Positions 607-17,605 of a DNA stretch of 35,183 bases are shown one piece after another; within the stretch, counting starts at the first letter, position 1; every line of letters starts with the position of its first letter. The notes under the pieces were generated by a model. It saw only the letters and a list, made by a program, of their open reading frames with translations. It searched no databases and had not been told where the DNA came from. This stretch comes from Acidobacteria bacterium ADurb.Bin340 (lineage in GTDB: Bacteria > Acidobacteriota > Holophagae > Holophagales > Holophagaceae): positions 1 through 35,183 of the forward strand of contig MWBB01000003.1 of NCBI GenBank assembly GCA_002068835.1, written 5' to 3'. The translations under genes were made by a program, and so were the position numbers.

Positions 607-3600
607 TCAGAGGTCCGTTCCCCACTCCAGTGCGGCAGGGTTCGGCATCGAGGTGAGGACTTCGATCTGGCCTTCCTGCACCAGGCCGGGAATGTCGCCT
701 GGCAGGCCTTTCTTGAGCCGCTCGGGTGAGGCGTCCTCCGTGGAGTAGAGGCCCACCCAGGCGTTGCGTCCACTCTGTTTCGCGGCGTACAGCGCCTGGT
801 CTGCCAAGGCGAGGACCCGTTCCCATACGAAAAGCTCGGGGTGTCTGGAAACGAAGGGGAAACTGGTGAAGCCGATGGAACAGGTGCATCGGATGCTTCG
901 GCCCTCTCCGATATCGAAGGCATGCGCCTCCACGTTGGCGCGGATGCGCTCCACCAGAACGGTGGCATCCCGGCGGGCCGCGTGGCGGGCCACCACCAGG
1001 AATTCCTCGCCGCCCCAGCGCACGGCCGTATCGGAATCCCGGACCGTATGGCCCAGGATCGCCGCGACCTGCTGAAGCACCCTGTCCCCTGCGGCATGGC
1101 CATGCTCGTCATTGACGGTCTTGAAGTGGTCCAGGTCGAGCATGATGAAGAGAAGGTCGATGTTCAGGGACAACCGCTCCCGCCGATCGCAGGAGTGATC
1201 CCGGTGGATGCGCTGGACCTGGGCGACATCCTCGGCCATGCACTCGCCCAGGTAGCGCCGGTTGCGGAGTCCCGTGAGGGGGTCCGTGAGGCTCTGATCG
1301 CGCAGAGCTTCGTTGGCGAGGCGCAATTCCTGGGTGCGCTGGGCAACCTTGGCTTCCAGTTCCTGGGTCTGCTTGAGCAGCCTCCTGGTCCGGTACCAGA
1401 CCATTCCGGCCACCAGCCCCAAGCCTCCGAGGACCTCCAAGGTTATGGCCCACCAGGTGAGCCAGGGGGCGGGCAGCACTTTGATCCGGAGCGAGATCGG
1501 GCCCGATTCGTTCCCGGCGAAATCCCTCCCCCACACCTTGAAGGTGTACGATCCCGCCGGAAGCGTGGAGTATTCACGTTTGGCGTCGGCCAGCCATTCG
1601 GACGGCTGGGCTTCCAGGCCTTCCAGCTGGGTGCGGTAGCGGGTGTCCTCTTCCCGGAAGAAGCTCAGCAAGGCGTATTCAAGAGACAAGCGGGGGCTGC
1701 GCCAGGGGATTTCGAGCAGGCGGTCCAAAGGCTTCGACGCGCTTCCGAGCTTCACGTGCTCCAGCAGCAAGGGTTTGGGCGAGCGATCAAAGGCTTCCTG
1801 GGAAAGATCCAGCATGGCTGCGCCCGCCACGGTGCCCGTCCACAGGCGTCCGCGGCGGTCCACGAAGCCGGAGCTCATGGTGCATCCGTTGCTCGGCAGT
1901 CCATCGCCCGTGGTGTAGGTGTACAGGTCGAAAAGGGATGGATTCTGCGCCGAGGGCTTCCGCGGCGTGAGGCGGACGACTCCGCGGTGCGTGAACACAA
2001 AGACACGCCCCTGATCGTCCTTGGCCAGCTGGTACACCAGATTGCTGGGGAGGGGCGGCAGGGCGCCTTGCCCCATGGTTTCCCATGCCCCTGAGGGGAG
2101 ATCCAGGCGAAGGCGGGAGAGGCCGTTGTAGGTTCCTGCCCACAGCCAGTGGCCCGAGGGATCCCGGGTTTCCAGAAGCGCGGTGACGTGGATGTTGCAG
2201 AGTCCATCTGCCGTCGTGATGATCTGCCAGCCTTTTCCGACCTCTTTTGCGAGCCCGGCGCCCCGGGTGGCGATCCAGAACTGCTTGGGTTTTCCCGGTT
2301 CCGTGGTTTCGCAGAAGGCCAGGATGGGGCTGCGGGGAATGGCCTTGCCATCGCCGAAGGACGTCCACCTGCCGTCCACCATGCGCGCGGCGCCATTGCG
2401 GGTGCCGATCCACAGTTCCCGTTGGCCGTTCGGAAGCACACGCTCATGGATGCTGTAGACCCAGGAATCGGGCAGCCCATCCTTTTCGGTGAAGCGGTTC
2501 CAGCGGCCATCCTTGAACCGCAGCAAGCCGCTGCCGCGCGTTCCGACCCAGAGCGTGGAGCGGCCGGATCCGTCTTCCGTGGAGAGGAACCGCATGATCA
2601 GCCGGTCGGGGACTTCGGAATCCTCCCCGTAGGTGTGCCATTGGCCGTTCTCGAAACGGGCCAGGCCTCCCCCCAGAAACCCCACCCAGAAGGCCTCGGG
2701 ATGGCGCGTTTCACCCAGGGCGAAGGACACGTTGTCCGGCAGGCCGTTCTGGGTGCTGAAGGAAAGCCAGGTGCCGCTCACCATGCGGACCAGGCCCCCG
2801 AAGGTGCCCGCCCAGACCGTTCGCACGCCATCGGGGGAGGTGGCGACGTGCAGGCTGCGGATCACATTGTTGGGAAAGCCCTGTCGGCTATCCACCAAGG
2901 TCCACGAACCCTTTTCGCGGATGACAAGCCCCTGTTCCGTGGCGAGCCAGAGGCTGCGCTGGCCTTTCGCGTCCCGGGTTTCCAGGATCCGGTTCACGAC
3001 CGTGCGGGGCAATCCCTCGTCCCTGGCAAGGTTCTTCCACGCCTTGCCGTCCCAGCGGGCCAGTCCTTGGCTGGTCCCGGCCCACACCACGCCCTGTCCG
3101 GCTTCGTCCACGCTGTCCAGAACACTCCACACGGTGCTGTGAGGCAGGCCGTCCGCCTTGGTGAACCATCTCCACTGGCCATCCTGCAATCGTCCCAGGC
3201 CTTTTTCGGTGGCCACCCAAAGCACGCTTGGGCCACCGGGATCCGGGCCCTCGTGCAAACCGAGCACCCCGGAAGCCAGCAGGCCGGATTGTTCCGTGAC
3301 CGGTTGCCAGCGTCCTTCGTGGAAGCGGGCCAGACCTGTCGCGGTGCCGGCGAGCAAGGTGCCGTCCCGGCGCTCCAGCAGGGACAGCACCCGCGTGTGG
3401 GGCAGGCCCTGGGCTGTGTCGTAGGATTCCCATTGGCCGTCCTTCAATCGGCAGACGCCTCCCATGTCCCGGCCGAACCAGAGGCTTCCATCCGATGTCT
3501 GGATCATGGACCGGACCCACCGGGAGGTATGAAGGTCCGGCAGGCTGACAGGGCTCCAGGTGCGCCCGTTGTAGAAGGCTGCGCCGTCCTGCGTGCCTAC

Positions 3601-3798
3601 CCAGAGATAGCCTTTGCGGTCCACCAGAAGCCCCTCGATGGAGTTCTGGGGCAGACCGTCCCGGTCCGTGAAGATCCTCATCGCGGGCCGACCCGCCGAG
3701 GCCACATCTTTCGAACGGGTGTCGGCTTCCGCCCAGGCCGGCAGCAACGCCACCGCTCCCAGGAGGAGCAGAAGGCCGGGAACGGTCAGCAGGCGCAC
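607..3798 (-). CDS. Periplasmic beta-propeller sensor with membrane-anchored diguanylate cyclase (GGDEF)
   Basis: This is a predicted c-di-GMP synthase with a large periplasmic sensor. Residues 1-24 form a signal peptide. Residues about 40-690 hold many propeller repeats of the two-component-regulator type, each with a DGLP turn and an LWxGTxxGLAR-like strand. A Y_Y_Y-type beta domain follows at about 700-775, a transmembrane helix at about 779-802, a short coiled coil and a GGDEF domain from about 835. The catalytic loop is GGEEF (929-933). An RxxD inhibitory site (R920, D923) sits five residues before it, so product inhibition is expected. DLDHF supplies the metal-binding Asp residues. The usual partner of such propellers is a histidine kinase; here the output is directly c-di-GMP. 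The start is GTG, preceded by an AAAGGGA-like ribosome site. The ligand is unknown. The function class is secure. Confidence 0.93.
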   Translation of the reverse strand: MRLLTVPGLLLLLGAVALLPAWAEADTRSKDVASAGRPAMRIFTDRDGLPQNSIEGLLVDRKGYLWVGTQDGAAFYNGRTWSPVSLPDLHTSRWVRSMIQTSDGSLWFGRDMGGVCRLKDGQWESYDTAQGLPHTRVLSLLERRDGTLLAGTATGLARFHEGRWQPVTEQSGLLASGVLGLHEGPDPGGPSVLWVATEKGLGRLQDGQWRWFTKADGLPHSTVWSVLDSVDEAGQGVVWAGTSQGLARWDGKAWKNLARDEGLPRTVVNRILETRDAKGQRSLWLATEQGLVIREKGSWTLVDSRQGFPNNVIRSLHVATSPDGVRTVWAGTFGGLVRMVSGTWLSFSTQNGLPDNVSFALGETRHPEAFWVGFLGGGLARFENGQWHTYGEDSEVPDRLIMRFLSTEDGSGRSTLWVGTRGSGLLRFKDGRWNRFTEKDGLPDSWVYSIHERVLPNGQRELWIGTRNGAARMVDGRWTSFGDGKAIPRSPILAFCETTEPGKPKQFWIATRGAGLAKEVGKGWQIITTADGLCNIHVTALLETRDPSGHWLWAGTYNGLSRLRLDLPSGAWETMGQGALPPLPSNLVYQLAKDDQGRVFVFTHRGVVRLTPRKPSAQNPSLFDLYTYTTGDGLPSNGCTMSSGFVDRRGRLWTGTVAGAAMLDLSQEAFDRSPKPLLLEHVKLGSASKPLDRLLEIPWRSPRLSLEYALLSFFREEDTRYRTQLEGLEAQPSEWLADAKREYSTLPAGSYTFKVWGRDFAGNESGPISLRIKVLPAPWLTWWAITLEVLGGLGLVAGMVWYRTRRLLKQTQELEAKVAQRTQELRLANEALRDQSLTDPLTGLRNRRYLGECMAEDVAQVQRIHRDHSCDRRERLSLNIDLLFIMLDLDHFKTVNDEHGHAAGDRVLQQVAAILGHTVRDSDTAVRWGGEEFLVVARHAARRDATVLVERIRANVEAHAFDIGEGRSIRCTCSIGFTSFPFVSRHPELFVWERVLALADQALYAAKQSGRNAWVGLYSTEDASPERLKKGLPGDIPGLVQEGQIEVLTSMPNPAALEWGTDL

Positions 3799-5107: not shown

Positions 5108-5482
5108 TCAATACAGGATGAACCCGATCAGGACCGGAAGGATCAGCCCAAGGGCCAGGGCTGCGATCAGGGCCTTGCGGTCTTTCCAGGTGGGCCGATG
5201 AAGCAGGTGCGGGGGCGCGAGGGCCAGGAGAGTGGCGCCAAGGAGGGCCGGGCCTTCCGCTGGATCGCTCCGTCCGTCCAGCAGGGCCGCGCAGGCGGCG
5301 GCGGCCAGGGCCAGGGTGGCGCTCCGGAACAGCCGCCAGGCGAGGGCAGGCGAGGGTTCCCGCTGGCGGAGGGCGCGGAAGCCCGCACCCAACCCGGCCA
5401 GACCCAGGGCGACCGCTGCCAGCAGCAGCGGGCGGGCCACAGGCGAAGCAGGGCCGAAGCCTTCGGGCCAGGGCAGGATCAT
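5108..5482 (-). CDS. Small integral membrane protein, unknown function
   Basis: 124 residues, mostly hydrophobic, with about four predicted membrane segments (roughly 17-37, 50-67, 78-92 and 103-122) and short Arg/Lys loops. There is no haem-binding CxxCH and no tryptophan-rich WWD signature, so it is not a recognisable CcsA. Its ATG overlaps the stop of the ResB-like gene in an ATGA junction, so translation is likely coupled. Its position suggests a role alongside the ResB-like protein in the membrane, but no sequence motif supports a specific function. Confidence 0.7.
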   Translation of the reverse strand: MILPWPEGFGPASPVARPLLLAAVALGLAGLGAGFRALRQREPSPALAWRLFRSATLALAAAACAALLDGRSDPAEGPALLGATLLALAPPHLLHRPTWKDRKALIAALALGLILPVLIGFILY

Positions 5483-7152
5483 GGCGTGCCTCCCGGGTGC
5501 CGCAGCTTCAGCCAGGGCTTGAGGAAGAACATCCAGGCCAGCCCCAGGAGCAGCAGACCGCTGCCCGCCCCGAGCAGGGGCAGACCCGGTCGGCGTTCTG
5601 CCCGGAGTCCCAGCACGGGCCCCGTTTCTCCCGGCACGGTGGCGGCCCGCACGGTGTAGGGCCCCAGAGCCACGGGGCGGCCCGGGTGCAGGGTCTTCCG
5701 GGCGAGGATCCGGCCTGCGGCATCCACCAGGATCGTGGCGGCCTTCAGGTCCTTCGGCGCGGGTTCCGCAGGGTGCAGCGCCAGAGACAACCGTCCGAAG
5801 AAGGTTTCTGCTCGGGCGCCCTCGCCGGGGCCCGGTGCCTCCAGCCAGCCGTGGGCCACCCGGCCGCTGGCGGCATCCCGAACGGTGACCTGGAGGGCCG
5901 TGCGGGCTTCGGGGTGCTCCAGCCCCTCGGGCAGGGGCGTGAAGTCCGGTGCCCAGCGGGTGTGGGCGAGATGGGCCACGGGGGTCACGGAGCGGCCCGG
6001 GGCCACCACGAAGGGCTGGCCCAGCACCAGGGGCGCCTCCCGCCGCAGGCGGCCCTCCTCCAGCAGAAGGATGCGGTTCCCGGACCGGTCGAAGACCACT
6101 TGGCGCGGGACCACGGGCTCCAGCAGGCGCAGTCGCGCTCCGGGGGGCAGGGCCGAGGCGTTCAGGCGGTCGCAGAGCTCGGGATGGCGGGCCGAAAGCA
6201 GCAGCAGGGCCCGCTGGCCGTCGGCGGTGACGAGCTGGGCTTCCACCCAGGGCCCTTGCAGCTCGCGGAGGGCCGGTGCCGTTCGGGCCAGATGGGGCGG
6301 AAAGCTGCTGTGGCGGGCTCCCACCCGGAGGGTGAAGCCCGGCAGTTCCCAGGGCCGGGCGGGATCCGCAGGGTGCTCCAGGGCGCCTTCGGCCATTTCC
6401 AGCCGCAGGCGGGGCGTGTCCCGGGGCTGGGCAGCGTCGAAGCGCTCCACGAACCGCACCTCGAAACGGCCATCCGGCGCGAGGCGCGCGGAGGCTTCGG
6501 GATCCCGCAGCCGCAGCAGGCCCACCCGGGGCTCCGGTTCACCGATGCCCAGCAGCACCCGCAGGGCCGGGTCCTCCGGGGCATCGGGATCCTCCACCCA
6601 GCCACCCCGATCCACGGCCCGGGGCAGCAGGCGGCCGAAACGCACTTCGGCCCCGAGGCTCCGCGTCTTCCAGGAGGTGCCTTCCTTCGGGGGATGCTGG
6701 CCCAGGAGTCGGTTCGGGCCTTCCGCAGGGCGGGCGGTCACGGTCAGAGGCTGGGGCGGAAGCTGGATCTCCTCCACCCGCAGGCGCAAGCCCCGTCCCA
6801 GGTTCTGGCCTTCCGGGGCCAGCGCCGAGGCCAGAGGGGCTTCGTGGCGCTCTCCGCTCCAGCCCTCCACCAGCAGACCCCCCACCAGCAGGAGGGGCGC
6901 CAGATGCGCGAGGAGGAAGCCGAAACGAGGTGCGGTGTAGGGTCTGCGCTTCATGATCGCGGTGCCCAGGGAGGCCGCCAGCAGCAGGGCCGAAGGCACC
7001 AGGAACCAGGGCGCGCGCCCCGGGGCCAGGTCGCCTCGCCCTCCCAGAACGATCAGCAGGAGCCCCAGCGCCATAATCTGGGCCACGGCCGAGGGCAGGG
7101 AAGCCAGGGCCGCGAGGCCGCGGCGAGAACCGGTGGAGGGGGAATCAGCCAC
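5479..7152 (-). CDS. ResB-like cytochrome c biogenesis protein
   Basis: 557 residues with the ResB/CcsB layout: three membrane segments near the N-terminus (about 20-37, 47-63 and 77-97), a large extracytoplasmic region (about 100-510) and a last membrane helix near 525-545. Two regions look like the family. The third helix reads as an HLAPLLLVGGL segment. The C-terminus has PGLPLLGAGSGLLLLGL, like the PG..(Y)xGsxlxxxG ending of ResB. ResB works with CcsA to deliver haem and ligate it to apocytochromes c in System II. No CcsA gene is present in the window. The gene begins 9 bases after the IspH-UbiA stop and overlaps the next gene by 4 bases. The family call is probable; the middle domain is divergent. 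Confidence 0.68.
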   Translation of the reverse strand: MADSPSTGSRRGLAALASLPSAVAQIMALGLLLIVLGGRGDLAPGRAPWFLVPSALLLAASLGTAIMKRRPYTAPRFGFLLAHLAPLLLVGGLLVEGWSGERHEAPLASALAPEGQNLGRGLRLRVEEIQLPPQPLTVTARPAEGPNRLLGQHPPKEGTSWKTRSLGAEVRFGRLLPRAVDRGGWVEDPDAPEDPALRVLLGIGEPEPRVGLLRLRDPEASARLAPDGRFEVRFVERFDAAQPRDTPRLRLEMAEGALEHPADPARPWELPGFTLRVGARHSSFPPHLARTAPALRELQGPWVEAQLVTADGQRALLLLSARHPELCDRLNASALPPGARLRLLEPVVPRQVVFDRSGNRILLLEEGRLRREAPLVLGQPFVVAPGRSVTPVAHLAHTRWAPDFTPLPEGLEHPEARTALQVTVRDAASGRVAHGWLEAPGPGEGARAETFFGRLSLALHPAEPAPKDLKAATILVDAAGRILARKTLHPGRPVALGPYTVRAATVPGETGPVLGLRAERRPGLPLLGAGSGLLLLGLAWMFFLKPWLKLRHPGGTP

Positions 7153-7161
7153 CGGGGGACC

Positions 7162-8880
7162 TCAGAGCAGGGCCAGGAGGCCCACGAGGTAGAAGGACAG
7201 CTCCAGGGGCGGTTCCACCTTGGAGGACCCGGCGGTGAAGCGCTCGTGGTACAGCCACAGGTAGGCCACGGGGTAGGCGGCGGCCAGGGTGGCGAGGCCG
7301 ATGGGCAGCCAGGGCCGGGGCAGGCCCGCCTCCAGGGTGGTCCAGGCGAAGGCGGCCAGGGCCAGGGTCAGCAGGGTCAGCAGCACGATCTTGGTGGCCC
7401 GGCGTCCGATGAGGATGGGCAGGGTTTCCCGGCCCAGGATCTGATCGTTCTGCATGTCCTTGATGTTGTGGATGGCGGTACGCGCGAACACGAGGCTGGT
7501 CACCACCAGCACCCCGGCCCAGGTCCGCAGGTTCCAGGCGGCGCTGTGGTGCCACAGGGGCAGGGCCACGGCCACGATGGCGAGGGCCAGGGACACCAGG
7601 ATGTCCTTGGAACCGGGGATGCCCGACAGGCTCAGGCGGCGTCCGAACAGGTTGAGGCGCTGCTTGTACAGCAGACCGAAGGCGGAGGCGGTGGCCACCA
7701 CCAGGAAGGAGCCCAGGCCCATGGTGGCCGCGACCCCCAGGGCGATGCCCAGGCTGGCCAGGCCGGTGCCCAGGAACAGGGCCCGATGGCGTTCCAGAAT
7801 CTTGGCCCGGGCGGGGCCCTTGGAGCCCAGGCCCATGGGGTCCAGGAAGGGGGCCAGCAGGAACATGGCCAGCACGTAGGTGCCGGAGATGGCCGGGTAC
7901 TGCCAGGTGCGGGGCGTGCCCATCCAGTCGTGGATGCCGAGGGTCATGAACACCGCTCCCAGGGCCAGCAGCAGGGGCATCCCCAGGGCCAACCGCAGCA
8001 GCTTGGCCAGGCGGCCGGGGCCCCGGCCCAGCTCCTCCAGGGCGTCCACCACTTCCTCCACCAGCCAGGTGGGGGTGGAAGCACCCGCGAGCACCCCCAC
8101 GGTTTCATGCCCCGTGAAGACCGAACGGTCCAGTTCCGCGGCAGTCTCCACGAACTGGTGGGGCTTGCCGTGGTGCGCCGCCAGTTCCGCCAGGTGGCGG
8201 GTGTTGGCGGAGTTCTTGCCGCCCACGATCACCACGTGGTCCACCCTGGAGGCGATCTCCCGGGCCTCGTTCTGGCGCGTCCAGGTGTCTTCGCAGATGG
8301 TGTTCTCCACGATCAGATCGCCGGACCGCTCCCGGAGCCGGTCCACGATGGTGTGGAAATCCTGCACCGTGAAGGTGGTCTGGGCCACCACCAGGGCCTT
8401 GCGCAGCTGTTCCTCGGGCAGCGCCTCCGCCTCGGCCATGTTCTGCACGATGATCGATCCGTGGTCCGCGAAGCTGCGGTGGGCCTCGCTTTCGGCGTGG
8501 CCCCGACTGCCCAGGATGATGGTGAAGTAGCCCTTGGGGCTCCACTTCTTGATCTTGCTGTGGACCTTGGCCACCTCCGGGCAGGTGGCGTTCACGATCT
8601 TCAGCTCGCCCTTGGCCTGGCGCTCCTTGAGGCCCCGAAGGTCCTGGATGGGGATGCCGTGGGCCCGGATCACCACCGTGCCTTCGGCCACCTGGTCCGG
8701 CGCCGGAGCCACGCCCACGCCCCGCTTGCCGAGGAGGTCCAGGGCCTGGGGGTTGTGGATGAGCGGGCCCAGGGTCTGCACCCGTTCGCCGTCGCTGCGG
8801 GCCGAGGCCTCCAGCACCGCGTCCATGGCCCGGCGCACCCCCCAGCAGAAGCCCGCGGTTTTCGCGACGATCACCTTCAT
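7162..8880 (-). CDS. ispH: Fusion: IspH (HMBPP reductase) with a UbiA-type prenyltransferase-like membrane domain
   Basis: 572 residues. Residues 1-285 are IspH, the [4Fe-4S] enzyme that makes IPP and DMAPP in the last MEP pathway step. The cluster cysteines are C12, C100 and C196. The substrate residues H42, H74, H128, E130, S224, N226 and S268 are all in place. Residues 295-572 form a polytopic domain with about eight membrane segments. It resembles UbiA-type prenyltransferases by the second Asp motif, NIKDMQNDQILGRETLP (472-488). The first UbiA motif, NDxxDxxxD, is not seen; its place (about 345-355) reads FLDPMGLG. ATG at 8880 is preferred because GAGG precedes it by 5 bases and C12 then matches E. 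coli numbering; a GTG two codons upstream is possible. The next gene follows after 9 bases. Confidence 0.9.
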   Translation of the reverse strand: MKVIVAKTAGFCWGVRRAMDAVLEASARSDGERVQTLGPLIHNPQALDLLGKRGVGVAPAPDQVAEGTVVIRAHGIPIQDLRGLKERQAKGELKIVNATCPEVAKVHSKIKKWSPKGYFTIILGSRGHAESEAHRSFADHGSIIVQNMAEAEALPEEQLRKALVVAQTTFTVQDFHTIVDRLRERSGDLIVENTICEDTWTRQNEAREIASRVDHVVIVGGKNSANTRHLAELAAHHGKPHQFVETAAELDRSVFTGHETVGVLAGASTPTWLVEEVVDALEELGRGPGRLAKLLRLALGMPLLLALGAVFMTLGIHDWMGTPRTWQYPAISGTYVLAMFLLAPFLDPMGLGSKGPARAKILERHRALFLGTGLASLGIALGVAATMGLGSFLVVATASAFGLLYKQRLNLFGRRLSLSGIPGSKDILVSLALAIVAVALPLWHHSAAWNLRTWAGVLVVTSLVFARTAIHNIKDMQNDQILGRETLPILIGRRATKIVLLTLLTLALAAFAWTTLEAGLPRPWLPIGLATLAAAYPVAYLWLYHERFTAGSSKVEPPLELSFYLVGLLALL

Positions 8881-8937
8881 GTCCACCTCGAAACCCGACC
8901 TAAATGGTCGATATTCAGTCTAGCGCCAGCCCCGGCC

Positions 8938-8997
8938 GGCCGTGGAAAAAGCCTTGCCTCAAGGCGGGACCTTCCAACACCCTGGAATCCACGGGCC
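8938..8997 (+). promoter_or_regulatory. Possible three-way-junction leader RNA before the anti-sigma-type ATPase gene
   Basis: In the divergent gap ahead of the gene at 9022, CCGTGGA (8940-8946) pairs with TCCACGG (8988-8994), extended by two G-C pairs across a bulged G. Inside it GCCTTG (8951-8956) pairs with CAAGGC (8960-8965), and TTCCA (8972-8976) pairs with TGGAA (8983-8987). The last helix abuts the closing stem. The pairing is seen directly; transcription and function are inference. It matches no riboswitch class I recognise. Confidence 0.3.
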
Positions 8998-9021
8998 GCC
9001 CCGAGCCCGAGGGTATTTCAC

Positions 9022-9468
9022 ATGGCCGTTGCTCCCCCGCTCCTTCCCGTCACGCTCACGTGCAACACGGACCTCCGCTTCATCGACCTGATCCAGGTGG
9101 TGGGCTCGGAGCTGCTCAAGCACCTGAGCTTCTCCCACGAGGATGGGGAACGGCTGTGGCTGGCCATCCAGGAAGGCATCGCCAACGCCATGCGCCATGG
9201 CAACCGTCTGGATCCCGCCAAGCTCATCAAGGTCACCTTCAATCCCAGCGCCGCCAACCTGGAAATCCGCATCGAGGACCAGGGGCCCGGTGTGGACCTT
9301 GAGAGCATCCCCAATCCCAACCTGCCCGAGAACCTCCTGAAGCCCGGCGGCCGGGGCGTCTACTTCATGAAGCAGGTCATGGACACGGTGGAACTGATCC
9401 GAAGCGCCGAAGGCAGCACGCTGGTGCTGGTCAAGCACCGCCGCCACGCGGAGGCCGCGGAGGCCTGA
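9022..9468 (+). CDS. Anti-sigma-factor-type ATP-binding protein (RsbW/SpoIIAB-like HATPase)
   Basis: 148 residues forming a single GHKL ATPase domain without histidine-kinase dimerisation parts. The N box is [11 protein letters not shown] (51-61), the G1 box is EDQGPGVD and the G2 box is [13 protein letters not shown]. This matches serine kinases and anti-sigma factors of the RsbW/SpoIIAB type, which phosphorylate an anti-anti-sigma protein or bind a sigma factor. No STAS partner or sigma factor is adjacent, so the target is unknown. The start follows GAGGG with an 8-base spacer. A long overlapping frame upstream is an antisense shadow of the genes on the other strand. A good terminator follows. 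Confidence 0.88.
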
Positions 9469-15304: not shown

Positions 15305-15952
15305 TTATTTTGTTTTTGGGATGTATGGCCCAGAAGGGAGGCCTTGGTCCACTCTGAATATGGCATTACCGTTTGCTTGTTGGGCTAAAGGAATATAATT
15401 AGGGGCTGCCTTGGTTACGCCAGCGGTGATGGCGGCGCTGATGAGATCGACAAGGGGGTTGCCACTAGAACTATTTTGTGGTGTATAATTCATGGATTCT
15501 TGGCTGGACCAGAGTTCTTCTCCTGTTTTTCCACTTTTTAGTGAATATTGGAAAGCAACCTTGACTGATGTTGAAAGTACTGCATATTCGGCAGTCCATT
15601 TATCGATCACAATATACAAAATTGCGTCGGCTCCAAATAATTCGCCAAGTTTTTTGGGGTTTGCATGGTGTACCAGGTTTGCATCAGCAAGTCCATCGTC
15701 TTCTAAAACTCTTTTCACTAGATTTATGGGATAAACATAGAATCCGCGTTCTGCAACTGGTTTGCTGATTGTTGCTAAAAAATAATCCGAGGCCGTGACG
15801 TCAACACTTTTGTTGATAACAGGAATAATTAAGATTGATTTCGGGTTTTCACTATAAAACTTTGTGTAATCTTTGGGTGTGGCTGCTGGTGGCCGGCACC
15901 CTATGGTTATTAATGTGAGTATAGCGGCTGCTAAAAATGGATTATTTTTCAT
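15305..15952 (-). CDS. DUF799 / GNA1162-family lipoprotein
   Basis: 215 residues. The signal peptide ends in a lipobox with the acylated cysteine at C19 (ITIGC). The mature region resembles DUF799 proteins such as Neisseria GNA1162: SILIIPVINKSVDVTASDYF, then PVAERGFYVYPINLVKRVL and LGELFGADAILYIVIDKW. These are anchored outer-membrane-associated proteins of unknown role; family members have been compared to TolB-like folds. It is the last gene of a four-gene operon and overlaps the DUF4810 gene by 4 bases. The base composition is far more AT-rich than the flanking genes, consistent with acquisition. Confidence 0.85.
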   Translation of the reverse strand: MKNNPFLAAAILTLITIGCRPPAATPKDYTKFYSENPKSILIIPVINKSVDVTASDYFLATISKPVAERGFYVYPINLVKRVLEDDGLADANLVHHANPKKLGELFGADAILYIVIDKWTAEYAVLSTSVKVAFQYSLKSGKTGEELWSSQESMNYTPQNSSSGNPLVDLISAAITAGVTKAAPNYIPLAQQANGNAIFRVDQGLPSGPYIPKTK

Positions 15953-16344
15953 CGAGTGCTCCTGCTGTCATTTTTTGAATTTGTTAATTTGTCATCCTTT
16001 TTGGGGGTTGGATTCTTGCAAATTAGAATCATTTTTTCCATAAAAAAAGTTGATTCTGGCCATTTCGATTTTTCTTTTTCAAACCAAATAATCGCATCAT
16101 TGTTTTTTTGCGTTGTTAATAAATAATATCCATATTCGGCATAAATACCTGGTGGCACTTTGCCTTTTGATTCTGCTGATGTTATTTGTTCATGTAATGA
16201 CTCGCCATATTTAGTCAAACTTGTTGGATCCTTCATAAGTTTATATAGTGAATTTTCGTAATCCCCCCATTGGTAAAGGGTTGGAGGTGAACAAGCTACG
16301 CCTGTAATGAGCACCATGGTTCCAATCCATAAAAGTGATTTCAT
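15949..16344 (-). CDS. DUF4810-family lipoprotein
   Basis: 131 residues. The lipobox ends at C18 (TGVAC). The segment LYQWGDYENSLYKLMKDP just after it is typical of DUF4810, followed by helices with LHEQITSAESKGKVPPGIYAEYGYYLL that look like tetratricopeptide-type helical hairpins. The function is unknown. It occurs with CsgG-family and DUF799 lipoproteins in other Gram-negative genomes, and the same order is found here. It overlaps the upstream small lipoprotein gene by one base and the downstream gene by 4 bases. It is AT-rich like its operon partners. Confidence 0.82.
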   Translation of the reverse strand: MKSLLWIGTMVLITGVACSPPTLYQWGDYENSLYKLMKDPTSLTKYGESLHEQITSAESKGKVPPGIYAEYGYYLLTTQKNNDAIIWFEKEKSKWPESTFFMEKMILICKNPTPKKDDKLTNSKNDSRSTR

Positions 16345-16658
16345 TATTTCACCTCACGGGGGACACTTACGGAACGCATTTCGCCCCCTCCAAAGAAAAT
16401 TCGATGAATCAAAAGTGTTGCGCCGTCCTTTTTGATTTCGATGATGTGTGTTCCAGGTTCAACAGAGAGTACATTTGGATCGCCGGAAAAGGCATCTGCA
16501 GAGCCAACCGGTTTTCCGTCAAGAAATAGGATGGCGCCGGAGGGGGCCCCCATCACCCTGAGAGTCGAACGACCATCGATAGTTTGAACAGTCGTGTTTG
16601 GCATTTTACAACTTGTTGAAATAAATCCAATTAACATAAGACATAATGCTTTGTTCAT
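16344..16658 (-). CDS. Small lipoprotein with PEGA-like beta domain
   Basis: 104 residues. A signal peptide leads to a lipobox cysteine at C17 (STSC). The mature part has a beta pattern with APSGAILFLDGKPVGSADAF and VEPGTHIIEIKKDG, which resembles PEGA-type surface or wall-associated modules. That assignment is by eye and tentative. It lies between the CsgG-family gene (4-base overlap) and the DUF4810 gene (1-base overlap). It is an extra member compared with the three-gene CsgG-DUF4810-DUF799 set, so it may act as an additional subunit. Confidence 0.75.
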   Translation of the reverse strand: MNKALCLMLIGFISTSCKMPNTTVQTIDGRSTLRVMGAPSGAILFLDGKPVGSADAFSGDPNVLSVEPGTHIIEIKKDGATLLIHRIFFGGGEMRSVSVPREVK

Positions 16659-17605
16659 GGTTGTTTCACCTCAGAAACATAAAGATTGTCTTGTTGATTA
16701 ATGTTACCTTCGATAATTTCGCAAATCGACCCTTCGCTTATCTCTGAATCTCCAAATAAATTGATCACGCGAACAAGCCCAATTTGTGTGGATGGAAGAG
16801 TTATTTCGAATCCACTCTGATTGCTTTTGACTCTTTCTCCTTCTTTGAATATCGCTAGTTTATCTCCTATTTTTAATCCTTGTCTATGGCCACCCGATAT
16901 GTAAATTTTGTTGCCATCTGTTTTTAGTATGTCGGTTCTCCATGGCCTTTCGTTGATTTTATTGACAATATCATTCATTACGTCAGAGATGGCTGCACCT
17001 ATAGCACGATCATTAAGTGTTGCATCATATTCAGATCTACTTCCGTAGCCAGCAATAGACCCTGTCTCAGTGTTGGCTTCTCCCATTCCCGTCGCCGTGA
17101 AAAATGCAAGGCCTGTTTTCACATCGATTAGGCGCACCTCGACTTTGGCCCTTGCAACTTGGTTCTTGGTGGCACTTAAAAAACCAACTTTGCCACCGGT
17201 GGATCGGCCAAATTCGGTCACGGACCCAACTACCAGGGTGTCTACCCCAACTAGGTTCTCTTGGCCTGTAAGGCGCTGCTCTCGCTTGACTCTTTCTAGG
17301 TCGGGACGCTCGAATACGAGGAATTGTCCGGATTTGATTAACCGGTTGTAGAGCATATCCGAGGCCTGTTTGCCGAGGGGATCGAGATCGCCATCTGTGA
17401 GAAGAGATCGACCGTAACGCGTCTCGTTGGTGAAGCGGGCTACCGCGATCTTCCTCTTAAACCACTTTTCGGGTAGCGAGTTGACTTGTGGTTGGGTTGA
17501 GGAAGGTGGCGTGATTGGGACCAACACTGGCGTGGATACGGTCGCGCAACCAATTCCGACAAGAAGGACTGTTGTCGAGAGGATCAAAGGTGGGATTTTT
17601 GACAT
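16655..17605 (-). CDS. CsgG/HfaB-family lipoprotein
   Basis: 316 residues. The lipobox ends at C20 (VGIGC). The CsgG domain spans about 50-215: KIAVARFTNETRYGR, then ASDMLYNRLIKSGQFLVFERPDLERVKREQ, DTLVVGSVTEFGRST and VEVRLIDVKTG. CsgG forms an oligomeric outer-membrane pore for curli. In CsgG-DUF4810-DUF799 operons no curlin is present, and none is seen here, so the secreted substrate, if any, is unknown. After about residue 225 there is a second small beta domain (ISGGHRQGLKIGDKLAIFKE), not part of classical CsgG. It is the first gene of the operon; GGAGG lies 6 bases before the ATG. Confidence 0.88.
   Translation of the reverse strand: MSKIPPLILSTTVLLVGIGCATVSTPVLVPITPPSSTQPQVNSLPEKWFKRKIAVARFTNETRYGRSLLTDGDLDPLGKQASDMLYNRLIKSGQFLVFERPDLERVKREQRLTGQENLVGVDTLVVGSVTEFGRSTGGKVGFLSATKNQVARAKVEVRLIDVKTGLAFFTATGMGEANTETGSIAGYGSRSEYDATLNDRAIGAAISDVMNDIVNKINERPWRTDILKTDGNKIYISGGHRQGLKIGDKLAIFKEGERVKSNQSGFEITLPSTQIGLVRVINLFGDSEISEGSICEIIEGNINQQDNLYVSEVKQP

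Follow-up and report, generated by a model that had tools for sequence, protein, structure and literature searches.

The enzyme IspH catalyses the final step of isoprenoid-precursor synthesis in bacteria, the conversion of HMBPP to IPP and DMAPP on a 4Fe-4S cluster. When a gene joins this enzyme to a membrane domain resembling the UbiA prenyltransferases, the question arises whether the fusion is genuine and, if so, what the membrane half does for the IspH half. Such a gene is found in a 35,183-nucleotide stretch of DNA (the window) from Acidobacteria bacterium ADurb.Bin340, the assembly of which comprises 2.8 Mb in 448 contigs and is 96% complete. A sequence-only reading of the window had reported a continuous frame through both domains, with the strand left out. 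Reading of both strands places the gene on the minus strand, where one uninterrupted frame of 572 amino acids runs from an ATG at 8880 to a stop codon at 7162-7164, and both Pfam domains in it score above their cut-offs. A frame break between residues 285 and 295, which the same reading had named as one observation that would speak against a fusion, was looked for and none was found. An SD-like GAGGTGG lies directly 5' of the start, and a GTG at 8886 is an alternative start. Read on the plus strand, positions 7162-8880 give a low-complexity antisense frame, part of a 1323-aa low-complexity open frame (5497-9468, plus strand) that is antisense to both the fusion gene and its downstream gene and whose far end runs into a real HATPase_c_2 gene at approximately 9019-9468. 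The features referred to below are as follows.

7162..8880, minus strand: whole fusion ORF, 572 aa (open frame; full-length homologues)
8020..8880, minus strand: IspH (LytB) catalytic domain and linker, residues 1-287 (Pfam, TIGR00216, PDB 3dnf, residue invariance, Foldseek)
7165..8019, minus strand: UbiA-fold membrane domain with nine predicted helices, residues 288-572, start at about 288-290 (Pfam, AlphaFold, Foldseek)
7828..7854, minus strand: degenerate first Asp-rich motif A343-xxx-D347-xxx-L351, canonical form NxxxDxxxD (alignment)
7606..7617, minus strand: family signature P422-G-S-K425 in the loop between helices 4 and 5 (P422 invariant)
7444..7458, minus strand: retained second Asp-rich motif D475-xxx-D479 (conservation among fused relatives)
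5479..7152, minus strand: next gene, membrane protein of 557 aa (same direction as the fusion; no Pfam match)

It is clear that the N-terminal half is a complete IspH domain. Pfam LYTB matches residues 3-282 (E 9e-81, 271.5 bits against a cut-off of 24.5), the NCBIfam model TIGR00216 (ispH_lytB) covers the whole domain with 257.4 bits (cut-off 187.85), and PDB 3dnf is matched at 9e-51. All cluster and substrate residues had been claimed to be in place, and this is borne out by the 4Fe-4S cysteines C12, C100 and C196 and the active-site residues H42, H74, H128, E130, T169, S224, N226 and S268, every one of which is invariant in all 108 distinct fused sequences (window included). The cluster cysteines, the HMBPP-binding residues and the fold are common to stand-alone IspH/LytB (3dnf, 3ke8), from which the present protein differs by an extra C-terminal membrane domain of 285 residues. 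The IspH-RPS1 fusions likewise carry a C-terminal extension of IspH, consisting in their case of ribosomal protein S1 repeats, whereas the partner here is a membrane domain; S1 repeats are absent, as NF000907 (IspH/S1) covers only the IspH part (273.6 vs 624 bits). A search of the 96% complete assembly identified the fusion protein as the sole IspH of the genome. IspG is present, split across two contigs, and HMG-CoA reductase was searched for in the source genome and is absent, from which IPP would be expected to come from the MEP pathway and the fusion to be an active IspH. Full conservation of the residues, the sole-IspH status and the MEP context together suggest that the fused IspH is catalytically active.

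The C-terminal half had been described as polytopic and UbiA-like, and both structure prediction and structure comparison agree. Pfam UbiA (PF01040) matches residues 362-544 (E 3.6e-11, 43.3 bits against a cut-off of 34.2) with the match restricted to profile positions 64-235, and NCBIfam gave weak UbiA-family matches only. AlphaFold produced a confident two-domain model of the full-length protein from a 46-sequence alignment (pLDDT 85.8, pTM 0.78) and a nine-helix model of the membrane half alone (pLDDT 88.4, pTM 0.87). Because all nine helices are present in the model, we take the missing N-terminal Pfam match as divergence and not as truncation. With the full-length model Foldseek returned IspH crystal structures and, independently, the UbiA homologues 4tq3, 4tq4 and 4od4; the membrane half matched 4tq3 (E 2.3e-5, TM 0.65) and also UBIAD1 in its complex with HMGCR (8djk, E 0.024). 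The nine-helix fold is shared with the archaeal enzymes AfUbiA (4tq3) and ApUbiA (4od5), as are the second DXXXD motif and the conserved block following it, whereas the membrane half has no intact first motif NDXXDXXXD, is fused to IspH and is 16-18% identical to these enzymes. Compared over the same pairs of proteins, the UbiA halves are 50% and the IspH halves 78% identical, showing that the UbiA half is the faster-evolving one; matched-pair identity was used for this comparison, and dN/dS (Nei-Gojobori) was set aside as unreliable, the gene being rich in GC and its synonymous changes saturated or biased.

The architecture is already known. Rao et al. 2015 (PMC4746011) described 47 IspH-UbiA fusions and attributed all of them to sulfate reducers. 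They called these 'Rosetta stone' proteins, reported two DXXXD motifs in their fused set as well as separate UbiA/MenA genes in the fusion genomes, and upon expression of IspH-UbiA obtained mostly truncated, insoluble protein with no full-length product. One further paper was found to name such fusions, and it only cites that work. The domain order, IspH followed by a C-terminal UbiA-like membrane domain, is the one found here, and the source genome also has an additional separate UbiA/MenA-type enzyme (MqnP-like, see below). The hosts differ, being sulfate reducers in the published set and Holophagaceae and other phyla in ours, and so does the state of the first motif: both DXXXD motifs were reported by Rao et al., whereas motif 1 is broken in all copies sampled here, which come from outside the Desulfobacterales. 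It is this break in every lineage sampled and the wider distribution that are new.

The same single ORF is present in more than 100 independent assemblies, with hosts among Holophagaceae, Nitrospirota, Nitrospinota, Sumerlaeota and Fermentibacterota (bins labelled Nitrospirae, Nitrospinota, Sumerlaeota and Fermentibacteria/Sabulitectum) and including cultured Geothrix species such as G. fermentans DSM 14018. Within the class, the full fusion occurs in all Holophagaceae-level relatives with an IspH match and in a second family, while a third family has IspH alone. Over 247 Acidobacteriota genomes 29 carry the fusion, namely Holophagaceae and the second family plus two other families; for the phylum of genome G275 the count is 11 of 77, and for that of G278 15 of 18, two of these 15 being cut short. 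The claim that the fusion is unusual does not hold for this lineage, every sufficiently complete Holophagaceae genome sampled carrying it, and the type was published in 2015. Conservation across genera, which the sequence-only reading had named as support for a biological meaning, extends in fact to full-length homologues in several phyla, and no locus with two separate genes was found among the close homologues. Searching 149 Acidobacteriota genomes with a profile of the UbiA half detected no stand-alone member of the fused subfamily: each of the 18 strong matches lies in an ORF of fused length, and a large gap separates fused proteins (E <1e-68) from ordinary UbiA proteins (E >1e-11). A tree of 78 IspH domains, with single-domain members drawn mainly from two phyla, unites the 49 fused domains in one group (support 100/99) containing one single-domain intruder, which suggests rather than proves a single origin of the fusion. 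The intruder (L112:2592-3428), from a Verrucomicrobiota bin, sits on a long branch; it may have lost its membrane half, or its placement may be an artefact of the tree. A split locus was considered there and rejected, the next gene being pantothenate-synthesis-like and not UbiA. One Holophagaceae genome has a second, divergent fused copy (G008:C1:718300-720100) of 517 aa and 43% identity, which stops short within its membrane portion; the main IspH motifs can still be read in it, and it is possibly a paralogue with a different role.

UbiA enzymes hold the Mg2+-diphosphate by the motifs NDXXDXXXD and DXXXD (PMC7839719), and these two motifs have fared very differently in the fused proteins. In a profile alignment the canonical N92, D96 and D100 align to A343, D347 and L351, and the canonical UbiA proteins from fusion-bearing genomes retain all three. 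The N and both D residues of motif 1 occur together in none of 121 distinct fused sequences, and D-xxx-D at these positions was sought in the same 121 and not found; the count covers lineages outside the Desulfobacterales. The residues lost depend on the lineage. In Nitrospirota the motif reads N..D..V/I (N and first D kept), in the phylum of G278 it reads N..S/G..D (N and second D kept), and most Holophagaceae copies retain the first D alone or neither; no copy from Holophagaceae, Sumerlaeota or Fermentibacterota has an intact motif. From these lineage-specific losses it looks as if motif 1 was lost repeatedly and independently after the fusion. In Holophagaceae a new conserved sequence, about PYLDPxGLGxKGPARARFLERN, now occupies the loop; it could serve a new function, and may represent new chemistry rather than decay. 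Motif 2 (D475, D479) is nearly invariant among the fused relatives and belongs to a conserved block with G483, T486-L-P488 and G492, and the basic residues K425 (or R) and R358 are kept as well. Only three of 108 fused sequences have a broken motif 2, two Acidobacteriota copies (L172, L173) and one contig from a viral collection (L151), all of which retain the membrane domain. The last of these (L151:1049-2683) is an IspH fused to a membrane domain with neither UbiA Asp motif; its neighbour is radC-like, and a tadA-like gene is found on the near-identical contig L153.

The surroundings of the gene offer little guidance as to a prenyl acceptor. The 557-aa gene (5479-7152) begins with a GTG 9 nt past the fusion stop; its product looks ResB-like by eye, but it has no Pfam match and the ResB matches of the genome lie on another contig (C11), so that this assignment was rejected. 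It is not conserved as a partner of the fusion across phyla, and comparison of neighbours revealed no operon partner conserved across phyla that would indicate an acceptor. Elsewhere in the window there are a cluster of CsgG-like, PEGA-like, DUF4810 and GNA1162-like lipoprotein genes (15305-17605, minus strand) and a gene for a large GGDEF protein with regulator propeller repeats and a Y_Y_Y domain (607-3798, minus strand). A separate UbiA gene on contig C37 scores 266.8 bits with TIGR01475 (cut-off 180.8) and falls short of the cut-offs in its matches to MqnP models. While belonging to the same superfamily as the fused half, it differs from that half in having an intact NxxxDxxxD. It fits futalosine-route menaquinone synthesis, as do two PF02621 genes in the genome. 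Since this MqnP-like enzyme and the two PF02621 genes are present, the fused half is probably dispensable for menaquinone, and a role as the menaquinone prenyltransferase is unlikely.

Collectively, these data lead us to favour, with a probability of about 0.58, an active IspH that is anchored in the membrane through a domain of UbiA descent, which probably lacks catalysis and possibly binds a ligand. What is observed is one ORF, a conserved fusion, a predicted fold and the state of the two motifs. As motif 1 fails, we do not class the UbiA half as an active prenyltransferase; since motif 1 is broken everywhere sampled while the fold persists throughout and motif 2 in nearly all cases, ordinary prenyl transfer has most likely been lost. 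We infer the membrane localisation and the purpose as a tether as well. In favour of the reading as a whole we count the retention of the membrane domain in L151, L172 and L173 despite loss of motif 2, the missing stand-alone copies of the UbiA subfamily, the separate MqnP-like enzyme and the faster evolution of the UbiA half. The gene would then give one membrane-bound protein, with an N-terminal half working as IspH (HMBPP to IPP/DMAPP on its 4Fe-4S cluster) on the cytosolic side and a C-terminal nine-helix domain derived from a prenyltransferase, most likely without ordinary Mg2+-dependent prenyl transfer. The latter would tether IspH to the inner membrane near the membrane enzymes using isoprenoids, and perhaps bind a prenyl diphosphate via motif 2 and the conserved basic residues.

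Against a tether speaks that the near-invariant D475, D479, G483, P488 and G492 exceed what a passive anchor would need, and the new Holophagaceae loop and the two DXXXD motifs reported for the published set (PMC4746011) point the same way. An alternative is the bifunctional enzyme proposed in that report under the 'Rosetta stone' heading, in which IspH feeds IPP/DMAPP to a UbiA domain still active with an atypical motif 1 and making a membrane product, e.g. a prenylated lipid or quinone precursor. The shared pathway, the near-invariance of motif 2 and its surrounding block and the retention of K425 (or R) and R358 are in line with this, and the new loop could be part of it. We nevertheless consider such an enzyme rather unlikely, as an intact NxxxDxxxD is found in 0 of 121 sequences, motif 2 is lost too in three fused members, no acceptor-pathway gene adjoins the fusion consistently across phyla, and menaquinone is served by a separate prenyltransferase. 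Furthermore, IspH yields C5 units, whereas the prenyl diphosphates taken by most UbiA enzymes are longer and come from a different enzyme. The sequence-only reading had taken the shared pathway theme as an argument against a chance fusion; the fusion is indeed conserved and not due to chance, while the idea of a prenyltransferase using the IspH products is weakened, with motif 1 broken in 121 of 121 sequences and menaquinone prenylation assigned to the MqnP-like enzyme.

The near-invariance of a half-site in a domain that has likely lost catalysis could also be explained if that half-site bound long-chain prenyl diphosphates and regulated the fused IspH, as a bacterial counterpart of animal UBIAD1 binding HMG-CoA reductase. 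UBIAD1 is known as a GGPP-responsive regulator of HMGCR (PMC8641950, PMC4374513), and its complex with HMGCR was among the Foldseek matches. That match, however, reflects general UbiA likeness and is weaker than the one to archaeal UbiA, and we regard such feedback as quite improbable. About as improbable in our view is that a UbiA prenyltransferase fold joined IspH early in evolution, came to occupy several phyla, repeatedly lost its catalytic motif and was re-used as a membrane-embedded prenyl-diphosphate sensor controlling isoprenoid supply, in parallel to UBIAD1 and HMG-CoA reductase of animals. A chance fusion or an assembly or frameshift artefact might be suspected in an assembly of 448 contigs, but we give it practically no weight: the same ORF is present in complete single-contig genomes and isolates and in several phyla, and the fused IspH domains form a supported tree group. 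Conservation in independent assemblies refutes chance and artefact alike.

Returning to the tethered IspH that we favour, its meaning would be that some bacteria hold the last step of the MEP pathway at the membrane. Should the membrane half prove to be a pseudo-enzyme, the annotation of the fused proteins as prenyltransferases would be wrong, and the published idea of C5 units being channelled into prenyl transfer would need revision. The distribution takes the fusion far past the sulfate reducers, and makes cultured hosts (Geothrix) available for testing these ideas.
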